Shown here: piece by piece, positions 55,648-61,718 of the stretch
How positions within the stretch are numbered: the first letter of the stretch is position 1
How the letters are laid out: every line of letters starts with the position of its first letter
Assembly (NCBI RefSeq): GCF_031624395.1
Contig: NZ_JAMQON010000003.1
Span: forward strand, 62,001 to 126,000
From: Halomicroarcula saliterrae
GTDB taxonomy: Archaea > Halobacteriota > Halobacteria > Halobacteriales > Haloarculaceae
Direction: 5' to 3'
Length of the DNA stretch: 64,000 nucleotides
Made by a program: the position numbers and the translations under genes
Notes under the pieces: model-generated
What the model was told of the DNA's origin: nothing
Seen by the model: the letters and a program-made list of their open reading frames with translations, nothing else
Databases searched by the model: none

Positions 55648-56859
55648 TCAGGCGAACCCGAGCGCCGAAAGCAGCGCGTACAGCACGTCGCCGTAGACCA
55701 GCGCCGTCACCAGCCCGACGAACATCGGGACGAGGAACGGGATGCCCGGCGACACCCACACCTCGTCGGCGTCGACCACCAGTTCGAGCCCCTCACGGAG
55801 CGTTTCGGCGTCAGTGCCGTAGGCGGACCCCTCGATATCGTCGAGGAACCGCTCGGCCCCCCACGGGTCGGCCGTGCCGGCGGTGCCGAACTGGTCGGCG
55901 GAGCCCTCCGGCATGGGCATGCCGCCGTCAGAGCGTCCCTCTGACGAGTCTCGCCTCACGTCGTTCGGCTCACCGCCCTCGGACCGTGGCTCCGATGTGC
56001 CTCGCCTCGCGTCGTTCGGCTCACCGCCCTCGGACCGTGGCTCCGATGTGCCTCGCCTCGCGTCGTTCGGCTCACCGCCCTCGGACCGTGGCTCCGATGT
56101 GCCTCGCCTCACGTCGTTCGGCTCACCGCCCTCGGTGACGAACGAGCCGTCACCCGGCGGGTTCGGCTCGTCCGGCAGCGAGTCGGGGTCGCGGTGGGCC
56201 GCGGGGTCGGCCCGCAGCGCCGCCAGCGTGGCGCCGCGCCACTCGAGGTACATCCGGAGCGCGTCGAGGTCGAGTCCGGACCGGGTGAACCCGTCGGGGC
56301 ACTCCAGCAGCCGGCCGTACTGCTCGGGAATCTCGGGGACAGGGACCGGTTTGCCGAGGAACATGGCCCAGGAGAACCGCCCCCGGGCGAGGTTGCCGGC
56401 GGCGACGCCGAGCGGGTAGACCACCCCCGCAAGCACCGTGTTCGAGAGGATGGTCAGGGAGAAGACGCCGATGAGCGACGGCTCCAGCGGGAGCGCCGCC
56501 GTCGTGAGGTAGTAGGTCGGGTAGATGGGAAAGAGGACGGAGACGAGCATGAACGCCTTGGCGTCGGCCCCGCCGAAGCCGCCGATGAGCCAGAAGCCGT
56601 AGGCGAGCGGCGCCACGAACCCCAGACTGATGGCGACCTGAACGAAGAACAGCGGGTCGGCCGCGGGGTCGGGCGGCCGGCCGAACGCCCCGCCGTTCAC
56701 GACGGCGTAGGTGTCCCAGACGAGCAACACGACGGCCAGCACGGCCAGCGGGACCCACGTCCTGTTCGGGACCCGTCTGGTCTCGATATCACGGTACGCC
56801 GCCCAGCCGAACACGGGGACGGCAAACAGTCGCAACAGGTCCGGTATCGACCCCAGCAC
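55648..56859 (-). CDS. Prepilin/preflagellin peptidase (A24 family)
   Basis: A 403-residue membrane aspartic protease that cleaves type IV pilin and archaellin signal peptides. The catalytic Asp residues are D24 in [13 protein letters not shown] and D99 in [13 protein letters not shown] (GxGD-like). About eight helices; the last two are at the C-terminus (residues 360-400). Between helices lies a cytoplasmic loop of over 150 residues containing three and a half 17-residue repeats ([17 protein letters not shown]), not present in standard PibD/FlaK (about 230-250 residues). Those repeats are encoded by 51-bp tandem DNA repeats. Confidence 0.92.
55960..56135 (-). repeat. 51-bp tandem repeats inside the peptidase gene
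   Basis: Three full units (55960-56010, 56011-56061, 56062-56112) and a 23-base partial fourth. The unit encodes [17 protein letters not shown] in the protein. The copies are nearly identical, so the expansion is recent. Being 51 bp, it keeps the frame. Confidence 0.92.
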
Positions 56860-57114
56860 GACTCCCCATCCCGCGTGGACGGCCCTAATGGTTCCGGTCG
56901 GTTCGGTGCCGAAACCGGACGCTCCGCGCCCCGAGCCGGGACAGTTCGGGGTCGTACATTATCATATATCAATGTTTGCGGTAGATTGATTAGCGTAGCT
57001 TGACCTTGAAGGTTGTATGGGCGGGAGACTGGCACGAATTAAACTGGATATCGGTGGGAGCGGTGACGAGAGCAATCAACGGGCGACCGGGACGCTGTCT
57101 CGGGAGGTGTGAGT

Positions 57115-57849
57115 GTGGCACTCGACAGTCCGACGCCGACCCAGCAGTACATCGTCGACTTGGTGGACTCCGAACCGGGGATGTCGAACGCCGACATCGC
57201 CGAGGAGACGGGCACACACACCGCGCTGGTCCGTGACCTCCGGAAGACGAAGCAGGCGGCCGCGGAGAGCGACGACGACGCGAGCCCGGGCGCGCTCTCG
57301 TCGCAGACACGGGTCCTCGACGACCTCTCGGGGACCCAGGCGGCCGTGCTCCAGCGGGCGGCGGCGGAGCCCGACCTGTCGAACGCACGACTGGCCGAGG
57401 CGGTGGGGACACACACGGCGCTCGTCCGCGACCTCCGAAGCGACGTTCAGGCGGAGGTGCTGGCCCACACCCTCCGGAATCCGGACGCGACGAACGCCGA
57501 CATCGCCGAGGAGCTGGGGACCCACACCGCTATCGTCAGAGACGCCCGAAGTGGGCTCGAAGCGGAGATTCTCGAACGGTCGGTGCGGAACCCCGGACTG
57601 TCGAACGCACAGTTGGCCGAGGAGCTGGGGACCCACATCGCCACCGTCAGGGACGCGAGAGCGGCCTACGAGGACGGCATCGGAGACGTCGACCTGACGC
57701 CGAGCGACGACGGGGGGACCGAACCGGCCGATTCCACCGCGAGCGAGCCCGCGACGACGGACGGCGGCGACGGAATGAGCGGGACCGTCGTCGCCCTGCT
57801 CGTCGGCGTGGTGCTGCTGGTCGCGGTCCTCGTTCTGGTGTCGATGTAG
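57115..57849 (+). CDS. Membrane-anchored protein with HTH repeats
   Basis: A 244-residue protein. Four similar 40-45-residue units each read roughly MSNADIAEETGTHTALVRDLR, a helix-turn-helix pattern. One unit is interrupted by a Ser/Asp linker (about 55-70). After an acidic Thr/Ser linker (175-215) comes one C-terminal membrane helix (VVALLVGVVLLVAVLVLV). The HTH units would face the cytoplasm. GGGAGG at about 57102-57107 lies seven bases before GTG 57115, deciding that start over GTG 57109. Confidence 0.75.
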   Translation: MALDSPTPTQQYIVDLVDSEPGMSNADIAEETGTHTALVRDLRKTKQAAAESDDDASPGALSSQTRVLDDLSGTQAAVLQRAAAEPDLSNARLAEAVGTHTALVRDLRSDVQAEVLAHTLRNPDATNADIAEELGTHTAIVRDARSGLEAEILERSVRNPGLSNAQLAEELGTHIATVRDARAAYEDGIGDVDLTPSDDGGTEPADSTASEPATTDGGDGMSGTVVALLVGVVLLVAVLVLVSM

Positions 57850-57927: not shown

Positions 57928-58317
57928 TTATATGACGCGGTTCTGCAGGTAGTCGAGGTGCTTGGCGTTGTAGACGATCTTGACCTCGTCGGCGTCGGGA
58001 CTGCCGATACAGGTCAGTCGGACGTTCTTCTCGTCGACTTCCTCGTCGCTGAGAATCTGCTGCATGTCCATGTCGATTTCGCCTTCGAGGACGATGGCAG
58101 CACAGTTCGCACAGGCGCCGGCGCGACACGAGAAGGGCCAGTCGTAGCCCTGTGCCTCCGCCGCCTCGAGGATGTACTCGCCCTCGTTGACGTCCAGCGA
58201 GCCGTGGTCCTCGTCGTCGAGGTCCTGGTCCGCGGCTTCCGCGAAGACGTCGTCGTCGTACATGTCCCAGCCGTTGTCGTCCACTACTTCGTAGTTTAGG
58301 TACTCTACCGTGGGCAT
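57928..58317 (-). CDS. Halobacterial [2Fe-2S] ferredoxin
   Basis: A 129-residue plant-type ferredoxin. The cluster ligands are C64, C69, C72 in [11 protein letters not shown] and C103 in RLTCIG. The N-terminal 30-residue acidic insertion ([22 protein letters not shown]) is the hallmark of halobacterial ferredoxins. It is the main electron carrier for 2-oxoacid oxidoreductases. ATG 58317 gives mature PTVEYLNYE; a GTG one codon upstream is in frame. Confidence 0.97.
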
Positions 58318-58398
58318 CACTGCCGGGTTCGGACCCCGTCTTGTTAGACTTTGCCCTTCGCACAGACCAGATGTACAATTGTGACAGACGGAGCGGGC

Positions 58399-59604
58399 TC
58401 AAAACACTGGAAGAAAGCGAAAGACGAGGTAAGCGGCGACCGTCGCGACGGAGGGGACGACGTTCTGGAGGAAGATGACGCGAGCGGTCGTCGCCGGTTC
58501 GAACAGGTCCGAGGCGCGCGGGATGTCCTCGCGGGACTCGGCGCCGATTGGCTCGGGTTCGTTGGGCTCGGGAGTCCCCTTCGTCCCGCCGACGGTGGGG
58601 GCGTCGTCGGCGTCGGCGGTCAGGGCACCCACTGAAACGTCAGGGGCCTCCTGCCCGGTCACCGTGTCCGAGAGCCGGGTCATCCGCGTCGCGCGGCCCC
58701 ACCCGAGGCCGACGATGCTCATCGTGGCGATGATGACGAAACTGGCGGGAATCCCGAGCGCCGAGAGGAAGGTGACGATGGTCGAGGCGACCGTCGCGAC
58801 GACGATGGCGGCCACGAGCGGCAGGTCGGTGAGGTCGTTACCGACGGTGTCCATCGTCCGCCGGGCGATGGTAAACGCGCCGAGACCGATGGCGGCCCCG
58901 CCCAGCAGGATGGCCGGGTAGAGGTCGAGCGAGCCGTTGCCCACCAGCGGGGCGACGGCGTTGGCGACGTTCGACGCGCCGGCGGAAAAGCCCATGTAAC
59001 AGCCGATTCCGATGACGACGACGGTGCCGACGAACTCCCGCCGTGTCGTGTTCTCGCCGAGCGAGGGGCGCGGAATCGCCCCCGAGCGGTCGAAATCGAG
59101 CAGCGCCCCCTCGCTCTGTGAGACGGCGAACCACGCGACCAGTTTCGGGTAGAAATATCGTCCGATGACGCCGCTGACCCAGAAGGCGAGGATGGGGGAG
59201 ACGAGCCACCAGATGACGATTTCGAGCATCAGTCCCGCGTTGAGCGTCCCCCGGGCGAGTCCGAGTCCCGCGATGGCGCCGACGGCCGTCATCGAGGTGG
59301 AGGCCGGCACGCCGACGACGTTCGAGAGGAACAGCGCGATGCCGATGAAAAAGAGGACGACGATGCTGATGAGCGGCGAGAACTGCGTCGCGACGAGGTC
59401 GCTCCCGAGGCTCTGGACGACGGCGGGGCCGACGATGAGCCCGCCGGCCATCGCGAAGACGGTCATCAGCGCCGCGGCCGAGAGCTTCGAGAGCGTGTTG
59501 CTCCCGACGGCCGGGCCGAAGGCGACCCCCGTCGACGAACCCCCGATGTTGAAGCCGACGAAGATAGCGACGAGAACCCCGAGTGCGAAGAGAACCTCGA
59601 CCAT
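58399..59604 (-). CDS. PiT-family inorganic phosphate permease, copy 1
   Basis: A 401-residue protein with about 10-11 helices. The two PiT repeats appear as GFNIGGSSTGVAFGPAVGS and SAGASNVANAVAPLVG. In classical PiT proteins both contain Asn-Asp (GxNDVANA); here the Asp is missing in both. A cytoplasmic acidic loop lies at about 310-370. Likely phosphate uptake coupled to Na+ or H+, though ion coupling may differ. It is a tandem paralogue of the next gene, 53 bases away, on the same strand. Confidence 0.9.
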   Translation of the reverse strand: MVEVLFALGVLVAIFVGFNIGGSSTGVAFGPAVGSNTLSKLSAAALMTVFAMAGGLIVGPAVVQSLGSDLVATQFSPLISIVVLFFIGIALFLSNVVGVPASTSMTAVGAIAGLGLARGTLNAGLMLEIVIWWLVSPILAFWVSGVIGRYFYPKLVAWFAVSQSEGALLDFDRSGAIPRPSLGENTTRREFVGTVVVIGIGCYMGFSAGASNVANAVAPLVGNGSLDLYPAILLGGAAIGLGAFTIARRTMDTVGNDLTDLPLVAAIVVATVASTIVTFLSALGIPASFVIIATMSIVGLGWGRATRMTRLSDTVTGQEAPDVSVGALTADADDAPTVGGTKGTPEPNEPEPIGAESREDIPRASDLFEPATTARVIFLQNVVPSVATVAAYLVFRFLPVF

Positions 59605-59657: not shown

Positions 59658-60818
59658 CTACAGCGCGTACTGGAAGACGAGGTAGGACGCCACGGCCGAG
59701 ATAGAGGGAGTCAGTATCCACAGCATCACGACCCGGCCCGTCGCCGAGGGGTTGAACAGGTCGCCGGCGGTGGTCGTCGACTCGGGGTCCTCCTCACCGA
59801 TGCCCGGGACCTCGCCGGGCTGGCCGCCGTCGGGGTCGGCGGGCTCGTGGTCGGCCGCGAGTGCGTTGACGGAGACGCCGCCGCCGTCACCGCTCCTGGC
59901 GGCGGAGCCCTTGACGGCCGCCCCGGCGGCGTCGGCCAGCGTCGTCGTCCGCGTGGCCCGGCCCCACCCGAGACCGACGACACACATGGTCGCCGAGACG
60001 GCCAGACTCGCCGGAATGCCGGCATAGGAGAGCAGGCTGATGATAGTCGCGCTCACCGTCTCGACGATGAGCGCGGCGAGGATGGGGAGCTCGGTGAGGT
60101 CGTTGCCCACCGTATCGAGCGTTCGCCGGGCGATCGTGAAGGCGCCGACTCCGATGGCCGCACCGGCCAGCAGGACGGCCGGATACAGCTCGATAGCGCC
60201 GTTGCCCACCAGCGGGGCGACGGCGTTGGCGACGTTCGACGCCCCCGCCGAGAACGCCATGTAACAGCCGATGGCGACCACGAGGAACTGCCCGACCCGC
60301 TCGCGCCGGGTCGTCCCCGGCCCCTCGGTCTCGAAGACGATGCGGGCCGCAAGGTGCGGGTAGAGGTAGCGGCCGACGACGGCCGAGAACCAGAAGGCGA
60401 CGATGGGCGCGACCAGCCACCAGGAGACGATTTCGCCCATGACGGCCCAGTCGAGGGTCCCGCTGGCGACGCCCAGGCCGGCGATGGCGCCGACGGCGGT
60501 CATCGACGTGGACGCGGGCACCCCGAAGAGGTTCGAGACCAGCAGGGCGACGCCGACGAAAAACAGGACCGTCACGCTGGCGAGCAGCGTGAACTGGCTG
60601 CTGGGGACGATCTGTCCACCCATCGTCTCGATGACGCGGGTGCCGACGGTCGCCCCGCCCAGCAGCGCGAAGCCGGTCATCAGGGCTGCTGCCGAGACCT
60701 TCGAGATGGTGTTGCTCCCGACGGCCGGACCGAAGGCGACCCCCGTCGAAGAACCGCCGATGTTGAAACCGACGAAGACGGCCACGAGGAGGCCAAAGAC
60801 TAAGAGCAGTTCTACCAT
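59658..60818 (-). CDS. PiT-family inorganic phosphate permease, copy 2
   Basis: A 386-residue paralogue of the adjacent permease. It shares GFNIGGSSTGVAFGPAVGS, VGVALLVSNLFGVPASTSMT and FSAGASNVANAVAPLVGNGA. The most divergent parts are the acidic loop (AVKGSAARSGDGGGVSVNAL) and the C-terminus. The pair arose by duplication and may form an operon (copy 2 first). As in copy 1, the PiT Asp residues are replaced. Confidence 0.9.
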   Translation of the reverse strand: MVELLLVFGLLVAVFVGFNIGGSSTGVAFGPAVGSNTISKVSAAALMTGFALLGGATVGTRVIETMGGQIVPSSQFTLLASVTVLFFVGVALLVSNLFGVPASTSMTAVGAIAGLGVASGTLDWAVMGEIVSWWLVAPIVAFWFSAVVGRYLYPHLAARIVFETEGPGTTRRERVGQFLVVAIGCYMAFSAGASNVANAVAPLVGNGAIELYPAVLLAGAAIGVGAFTIARRTLDTVGNDLTELPILAALIVETVSATIISLLSYAGIPASLAVSATMCVVGLGWGRATRTTTLADAAGAAVKGSAARSGDGGGVSVNALAADHEPADPDGGQPGEVPGIGEEDPESTTTAGDLFNPSATGRVVMLWILTPSISAVASYLVFQYAL

Positions 60819-60884: not shown

Positions 60885-61718
60885 TTACTTCTCAGGGTCT
60901 TCGCTGTCCTCGGCGTCGGCCAGCCGCTGGCGCTTCTCGGCCGCGGTCTCTTCGACCTCGCTCGCGGTCTCCTTGGCCGCTTCGACCTCCTCGGTGACGG
61001 ACTCGGCCGTCTGTTTGGCGTCGCTGGTCTTGTCTTTCACTTCGGTCGTCTTGTCCTTGGCCGCCGTGGTCTTGTCTTTCAGTTCGGTGGCCGTGTCCTT
61101 GACCTCGGTCGTCTTGTCCTTGACCTCGGTCGTCCGGTCCTTGGCCTCGGTCACCGTCTCGACGGCGTCGTCGTCGCCGGTCTGTGCGGCGGTCTGTTCG
61201 ACCTCGTCGGCGGTCTGTTCGACCTCGTCGGCGGTCTGTTCGACTTCGTCGGCGGTCTGTTCGACCTCGTCGACGGACTGTTCGACTTCGTCGGCGGTCT
61301 GCTCGACGTCCTCGGCGGCCTCGTCGACGACTTCGGCCGCGGTCTCGACCTCGGTCGCGGTCGTTTCGATCTCCTCTGCGGTCTGTTCGAGCTGCTCTGC
61401 GGCCTCTTCGAGTTCGGCGGCCTTGGTCGCGACGTCTTGATTCGTCCGTTCGAGGACGTTGGCGAGCACCAGGAACTGGAGAATGCCGACGACGATGAAC
61501 GCCGAGACGGCGACGCTCGCAGCGGTCGCGACCAGCGACGCGGTGGCGCCCCCGACCGATATGACGCCGACGGCGACGGCACCCCACAGCAACGTGAGGG
61601 CGATAGCGGCGGCGGTAATCGCCTGTGCGAACAGTCTGTACTGGCGCTCGTAGCGACCGAACATCGCGGACTCGAGCCGTCGAGCGAGCGGTGTGAGAAA
61701 CAGGATTCCTGCGGACAT
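60885..61718 (-). CDS. Membrane protein with LEA-like coiled-coil tail
   Basis: A 277-residue protein. Two helices at about 30-52 and 56-85 (ITAAAIALTLLWGAVAVGVI; ASVAVSAFIVVGILQFLVL) are followed by nearly 190 residues of heptads. The first block repeats VEQTADE, the second KDKTTEV. Such low-complexity Thr/Lys/Glu/Ala heptads resemble LEA-type desiccation proteins and chemotaxis-like coiled coils. DNA shows matching 21-bp repeats (about 61190-61300). The role, perhaps membrane or osmotic protection, is inference. Confidence 0.75.
   Translation of the reverse strand: MSAGILFLTPLARRLESAMFGRYERQYRLFAQAITAAAIALTLLWGAVAVGVISVGGATASLVATAASVAVSAFIVVGILQFLVLANVLERTNQDVATKAAELEEAAEQLEQTAEEIETTATEVETAAEVVDEAAEDVEQTADEVEQSVDEVEQTADEVEQTADEVEQTADEVEQTAAQTGDDDAVETVTEAKDRTTEVKDKTTEVKDTATELKDKTTAAKDKTTEVKDKTSDAKQTAESVTEEVEAAKETASEVEETAAEKRQRLADAEDSEDPEK

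Follow-up and report, generated by a model that had tools for sequence, protein, structure and literature searches.

The gene at positions 57115-57849 of the window, by which we mean the whole 64,000-nucleotide stretch of the Halomicroarcula saliterrae genome analysed here, encodes a small protein with repeated helix-turn-helix (HTH) units and a hydrophobic C-terminus, and it raises the question of what such a protein does at the membrane. A preliminary description had inferred a membrane-bound DNA tether or a signalling regulator. To our knowledge, the positioning and holding of the haloarchaeal chromosome are poorly understood.

Organization of the gene and its product

The gene stands singly between a divergent prepilin peptidase gene (55648-56859, minus strand) and a convergent 2Fe-2S ferredoxin gene (57928-58320, minus strand), and its features are collected in Table 1. 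We placed the start at the GTG at 57115 rather than at the in-frame GTG at 57109, on account of the preceding Shine-Dalgarno-like sequence and the homologous ATG in the orthologues L004 and L006.

Table 1. Features of the multi-HTH gene and its upstream region (window coordinates)
Feature	Position	Strand	Remarks
Conserved upstream element TAGATTGATTAGCGTAGCTTGACCTTGAAGGTTGTATG	56982..57019	+	133 nt ahead of start; proposed promoter/operator
Shine-Dalgarno-like GGAGGTG	57103..57109	+	by eye
Tail-anchored multi-HTH gene	57115..57849	+	244 aa, GTG start; ORF, frame and coordinates verified
HTH repeat 1 (residues 4-47)	57124..57255	+	outside the confident AF2 model
HTH repeat 2 (residues 69-112)	57319..57450	+	alignment, AF2 model
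HTH repeat 3 (residues 106-149)	57430..57561	+	starts 37 residues after repeat 2; continuous helices with neighbours (model)
HTH repeat 4 (residues 143-186)	57541..57672	+	alignment, AF2 model
Acidic S/T-rich linker (residues 187-219)	57673..57771	+	composition
C-terminal transmembrane helix (residues 220-244)	57772..57846	+	hydropathy; zero residues beyond

The acidic linker and single C-terminal helix described earlier are both present by composition and hydropathy: the linker has 33 residues, 30% of them Asp or Glu and none Lys or Arg, and the C-terminus reaches a hydropathy of 3.3 over 19 residues and stays hydrophobic up to the last one. The transmembrane (TM) helix was called by Kyte-Doolittle hydropathy, without a dedicated TM predictor, and a C-terminal hydrophobic helix was found in 13/13 orthologues. 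None of the 13 has an N-terminal signal-like stretch (maximum 15-residue hydropathy 0.03-0.78), and the N-terminus is thus probably cytoplasmic. A Pfam search found no sensory domain in the protein, and since nothing lies beyond the TM helix, a sensor of external signals on the same chain is unlikely.

Several neighbouring features were also recorded. Within the prepilin peptidase gene, positions 55927-56130 encode four tandem 17-residue copies of GGEPNDxRRxxSExRSx in a peptidase loop, which are degenerate in genome G007 (L005) and missing from Haloarcula rara (L007), a member of the genus to which the window's genome also belongs. On the other side, 58399-59604 and 59658-60818 are adjacent transporter genes, the first matching Pfam PHO4 and the second alike by eye only, and the product of 60885-61718, judged by eye, begins with a hydrophobic segment and continues as a long repetitive region of coiled-coil character (VEQTADEVEQ...), to which no role was assigned.

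The repeats are predicted to fold as wingless HTHs

The proposal of four HTH-like repeats was borne out by the alignment of four 44-residue units, whose motifs read SNADIAEETGTHTALVRD, SNARLAEAVGTHTALVRD, TNADIAEELGTHTAIVRD and SNAQLAEELGTHIATVRD; the consensus SNAxIAEExGTHTAxVRD holds across all of them with few substitutions. Identity to repeat 1 is 50%, 43% and 41% for repeats 2, 3 and 4 (44 gap-free columns). Furthermore, the protein matches Pfam HTH_24 at 1.2e-13, over the cut-off and far above chance, and PF13404 (Lrp-type HTH) at 3.8e-8, also over the cut-off, while a sequence search of solved structures returned nothing up to E 1.

We then modelled residues 66-192 with AF2 from a 28-row alignment of three-repeat blocks (pLDDT 89.1, pTM 0.74); this replaced an earlier model built from three near-identical rows (pLDDT 53.8), in which helices 2 and 3 were merged. 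The predicted helices span model residues 8-19, 25-32, 36-56, 62-69, 73-93, 99-106 and 110-125, so that each of the modelled units, repeats 2-4, consists of three helices with no strand and is thus an HTH of the wingless type. With repeats 2, 3 and 4 spaced by 37 residues, helix 3 of one unit, the recognition helix, runs on into helix 1 of the following unit (model residues 36-56 and 73-93).

Structure prediction of the repeats had been suggested as a check in the preliminary description, and repeats 2-4 came out as HTHs whose nearest solved folds include those of Lrp/AsnC proteins. The best VIA-align rows were Lrp/AsnC-type regulators (9w4v, Z 7.4; 1i1g, Z 7.0, rmsd 1.5 over 45 residues), the halophilic Lrp 8q90 scored Z 6.2 (rmsd 1.5 over 44), and sigma region 4, response-regulator and TrpR HTHs were also among the rows. 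In total, 212 of 998 chains reached Z >= 5 and none Z >= 8, and Foldseek gave zero rows at E <= 0.001. Since middling Z values are common among helical proteins, the fold call rests on the agreement of these rows with the Pfam matches and the motif; as modelled, the units resemble Lrp/AsnC-like wingless HTHs.

Distribution of the family and its history in Haloarcula

The survey of repeat number among relatives proposed earlier proved informative, with four repeats in 4 Haloarcula proteins and seven in 9 others; seven repeats plus the C-terminal helix occur in 5/5 Halonotius and 4/4 genomes of the genus "g55". Profile matches to the repeats at E <= 1e-12 were obtained in 7 of 391 class genomes, all Haloarcula (2 sampled carriers), Halonotius or g55, and at E <= 1e-10 in 3 of 392 phylum genomes, one from each of the three genera. 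Relaxing the threshold to E <= 1e-7 raised the count to 18 of the 391 class genomes, the 11 added genomes having one weaker match each. A scan of genome contigs returned four loci (two Haloarcula-type, two Halonotius), and a tblastn search of plasmid and phage collections with the g55 protein as query found no match.

Halonotius also carries paralogues without a TM-type stretch at five loci (L045, L046, L058, L060 and L061), with three to six repeats per ORF. Those with six repeats and no membrane helix are L045:4365-5513, L046:4285-5433 and L058:922-2058, and a folD-like gene follows the L046 copy by eye. A separate 878-aa Halonotius ORF (L047:2902-5538) contains one repeat unit and then a long coiled coil weakly matching SMC-type models.

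Within Haloarcula, the ferredoxin locus was recovered from 30 of 32 genomes surveyed. The gene is intact in 4 of these loci, reduced in one (G007) to a remnant that comprises the last repeat plus the tail and contains a stop, and missing from 24, in which 94-169 bp separate the peptidase match from the ferredoxin gene; the remaining locus (G010) is incomplete at one end and was left out of the tree. In a tree of the ferredoxin gene and flank from 29 loci, one clade with support 1.0 united the carriers with G007 and with G397, from which the gene has been lost. Since most Haloarcula examined lack the gene, and two genomes within the carrier clade have a decayed copy or none, it is dispensable there.

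Pairwise dN/dS was 0.14-0.33 for the whole gene (6 pairs; L007 trimmed by two codons), 0.06-0.23 for repeats 2-4, 0.39-0.61 for the acidic linker (one pair undefined) and 0.18-0.68 for the TM helix. Purifying selection is strongest on the repeats, and the linker and TM helix are least constrained.

A conserved element precedes the gene

Upstream of the gene, Haloarcula, Halonotius and g55 share an element with the core TAGATTRATTAC..RT.G.TT..AGT. Its distance to the start is 125-133 nt in 12 carriers and, in the thirteenth (G403), 128 nt; for L042 and L057 it was counted from the homologous ATG, which lies 36 codons within the longest ORF. The core is followed by GTATG in 12 of the 13 and by ATATG in G403. 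Across the Haloarcula upstream block, 37-39 of 41 positions agree in the 4 carriers, against at most 21 in the other 26 loci.

We built the alignments and a search pattern from 12 of the 13 carriers, leaving out G403. With up to 3 mismatches allowed, the pattern was found at the expected place in 13/13 carriers (0-3 mismatches, the window copy having 3), partly by construction since it derives from 12 of them, and it was absent from 4/4 non-carrier genomes, one of which (G007) is 58% complete. Eleven carriers have a single match per genome, and three extra matches (2-3 mismatches) fell in G302 (two) and G250 (one), compared with two matches of a reversed control pattern in 17 genomes. These searches gave no hint that strong sites are spread across the carrier genomes.

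Hairpins apparent in single leaders were not upheld by RNAalifold, whose consensus contained zero pairs (gapped alignment; 5' end of L057 incomplete), and we therefore read the element as DNA. The distance between the AT-rich core and GTATG would be consistent with an archaeal TATA box and start site, followed by a leader of about 90 nt. Conservation across genera suggests that a dedicated factor acts at this promoter, and the simplest candidate for it would be the multi-HTH protein itself.

We favour, with confidence that is about evenly balanced, a tail-anchored protein that faces the cytoplasm and binds DNA multivalently from the membrane, most likely at the element in its own promoter. The HTH array would sum several weak DNA contacts to tight binding, and the C-terminal anchor would fix the bound DNA at the membrane. 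The specific target would most likely be the conserved element, giving autoregulation, and broader binding of low specificity is also possible; the main output would be either transcription control or physical anchoring of DNA. A point against multivalent binding is that, in the AF2 model, the fusion of each recognition helix with the next helix 1 in a compact array could limit simultaneous access to DNA.

An origin-like neighbourhood in g55

The three g55 genomes examined here (L042, L043 and L044) have the seven-repeat gene divergent from an Orc1/Cdc6 gene, identified by Pfam Cdc6_C for L043 and by 96-97% identity to it for L042 and L044; a TBP gene lies beyond (Pfam for L043, by eye for the others). 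The interval between the orc1/cdc6 and seven-repeat genes (L043:3310-4402) contains 6, 6 and 4 copies of the ORB-like repeat TTTCANNGGAAANNNNGTGTG, respectively, with one facing the rest, an arrangement that we take to be the layout of a haloarchaeal origin. Among 148 loci, the exact TTTCANNGGAAANNNNGTGTG pattern was found at g55 loci only, and the origin link is thus a clue from one genus.

An origin link was not adopted for the window gene: an ORB-like pattern had no match in the window at up to 2 mismatches, and the closest Orc-like match along its contig, some 134 kb away, is not notable. Separately, another contig of the window's genome carries an Orc/Cdc6 gene (G000:C8:6858-8054) 81% identical to that of g55, which suggests that this replicator gene was transferred between genera.

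A bolder alternative is that the protein is a dedicated archaeal DNA-to-membrane tether, an HTH solenoid whose tandem units, joined through their shared helices, would grip DNA lengthwise while a tail anchor holds it at the membrane, in g55 directly at a replication origin. We regard this as tentative and rather unlikely. If true, it would amount to a positioning or segregation device, for which we know of no described archaeal counterpart.

Do the repeats contact DNA or protein?

Recognition helices were compared over 106 distinct repeats (107 in total, from 19 proteins or ORFs). A26, R37 and D38 are invariant and V36 is present in 99%, while position 32 is Arg, His or Lys in 92% and R40 occurs in 61%. 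The recognition helix has a mean net charge of +1.06 and the whole repeat -5.5, as against +0.86 (sd 1.4) and -2.0 in HTH_24 controls from the same genome (n = 14 usable of 30, with 16 dropped for having no match or a score <= 5 against the repeat model; several of the 14, aligned without gaps, are shifted by one position). The check for basic recognition helices called for earlier thus found them net basic and comparable with those of the genome's own Lrp-type HTHs, and the repeats overall more acidic than the controls. Position 33, expected to face DNA, is Val, Leu or Ile in 87% of repeats, which counts against DNA contact, and R37 may be structural, forming a salt bridge to acidic residue 24, rather than DNA-contacting.

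Under a rival reading, the HTH units would dock on proteins (RNA polymerase, TFB or some other anchored partner, for example), and the whole would serve as a scaffold at the membrane with no DNA binding of its own. The recognition helix, R/H-hydrophobic-T/A/P-L-V-R-D, combines an invariant acidic residue with a hydrophobic DNA-facing position, and the repeats bear a large negative charge; in addition, TFE-alpha models pick up several repeats in relatives (NF004910 at 1e-12 for L008, far below the cut-off), and the Foldseek rows include TFE-alpha 6pln (prob 0.90, E 1.9). However, no TFE model was hit by the window protein at E 0.1, the recognition helices of the repeats equal in charge those of the genome's own Lrp-type HTHs, halophile DNA-binding proteins are generally acidic, and the element conserved in the promoter points to a cognate site in DNA. 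We therefore consider a scaffold unlikely.

Single-HTH relatives and the origin of the architecture

The single weaker profile matches (E <= 1e-7) led to 12 ORFs that we read individually. In eight of them, the HTH is followed by one or more stretches above hydropathy 1.6, with three such stretches in L149 and L150; the remaining four comprise L152, which is borderline, the PAS-histidine kinase L153, and two proteins that look Lrp-like by eye (L156 and L160). The kinase, from Halonotius (L153:24-1352), bears one repeat-like HTH at its N-terminus.

Six of these proteins (L151, L154, L155, L157, L158 and L159) share the motif, linker and C-terminal hydrophobic helix of the multi-HTH protein, and differ in having one HTH, with a recognition helix that is mostly CSxxxV... 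instead of GARVxLVRD. A profile of six single-HTH, TM-bearing proteins matched 31 of 292 class genomes, namely 5 multi-repeat carriers and 26 others (five of the six seeds come from genomes among the 26, and hydropathy was verified solely for the 12 ORFs); the genome that contains the window was not matched. The profile runs nearly end to end over the last repeat, linker and TM helix of four seven-repeat proteins, covering positions 5-100 (G099), 6-101 (G302), 9-98 (G250) and 9-95 (G097) of 111, and only 10-83 in G174. Single-HTH haloarchaeal proteins with a C-terminal TM helix are thus the probable ancestral form, and the family would have arisen when the repeat of such a tail-anchored regulator with one HTH was amplified. 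Given these proteins in other haloarchaea, the window product looks like a repeat-amplified tail-anchored transcription regulator, suggesting that a membrane regulator family can grow in this way.

A further alternative is an ordinary one-component transmembrane transcription regulator (TTR), responding to a membrane or cytoplasmic cue or released by an intramembrane protease, with a few target genes and extra HTHs that only raise affinity. The protein has the DNA-binding domain plus TM region by which TTRs are defined in the published account (PMC10269533), and the single-HTH profile matches in 26 genomes besides the 5 multi-repeat carriers favour the same role. We nonetheless judge it quite improbable, as no sensory domain or extracytoplasmic tail was found, no neighbour gene common to Haloarcula, Halonotius and g55 was seen by eye as a partner or target, and four to seven HTHs exceed the need of such a regulator.

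A functional link to the prepilin peptidase was dropped, as the neighbours differ in other genera. An exported array handling DNA outside the cell, for adhesion or DNA uptake, would draw on the adjoining peptidase gene and on the likeness of the acidic S/T-rich linker to those before the C-terminal helix of anchored haloarchaeal surface proteins, but is very improbable, given 0/13 orthologues with a signal-like N-terminus and no prepilin peptidase seen by eye beside the gene in Halonotius or g55.

The preliminary description is partly supported: the predicted HTH fold of repeats 2-4, the net basic recognition helices and the C-terminal hydrophobic helix in 13/13 orthologues agree with it, and its DNA tether or signalling regulator would be possible roles. 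An external sensor on the chain is unlikely. The small, dispensable and apparently anchored protein, with its countable HTH units and candidate DNA site, offers a simple test system in which the units, the anchor and the site can be deleted one at a time.

Comparison with known systems

In the open-access literature, no paper on multi-HTH tail-anchored proteins was among the matches listed. Lrp/AsnC family proteins carry a C-terminal RAM (AsnC) ligand-binding domain. Their N-terminal HTH (1i1g, 8q90) superposes on one repeat of the window protein, which differs in its tandem repeats, its membrane anchor and the lack of a ligand-binding domain: no RAM or AsnC domain is among its 23 Pfam matches up to E 1, and its C-terminus is linker and TM helix. 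Assignment to TFE-alpha fails as well, since the fold is winged there while our model has no strand, and the best relative scores 47.6 bits against the NCBIfam equivalog, with a cut-off of 180 bits.

ArnR/ArnR1 of Sulfolobus acidocaldarius, likened here by description, are archaeal proteins with an N-terminal HTH and a C-terminal membrane anchor that bind promoters, and differ in having one HTH, HAMP and sensor domains and two TM helices (PMC6396743). RocS of Streptococcus pneumoniae likewise combines an N-terminal HTH for DNA with C-terminal membrane binding, and has been proposed to tether DNA to the membrane for segregation; as described, it has a single wHTH, a coiled coil that gives multivalency by oligomerising, and an amphipathic helix instead of a TM helix (PMC11500499). 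The window protein shares the HTH, shows no DUF536 among its Pfam matches and has a TM-type helix, and is thus outside the RocS type. RocS illustrates how an HTH joined to a C-terminus that binds the membrane can act in chromosome segregation (PMC11500499), and as an analogue in outline it might still be a model for the action of the window protein.

The nearest likeness is to the TTRs, which also join a DNA-binding domain to a single membrane helix on one chain, occur in archaea and in many cases have no sensor domain, as set out in PMC10269533; in the window protein, the former is predicted from HTH_24 and the AF2 fold, and the latter from hydropathy. Membrane-bound regulators being common (PMC10269533), the anchoring is not the odd part of the architecture that had been called unusual; the array of four to seven HTHs is, and neither "tandem" nor "multiple DNA-binding" appears in the main text of that paper. 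By its sequence and predicted fold, the protein at 57115-57849 appears to be a conserved, repeat-amplified variant of the TTRs, with an unusual HTH array and a putative promoter element linked to its gene.
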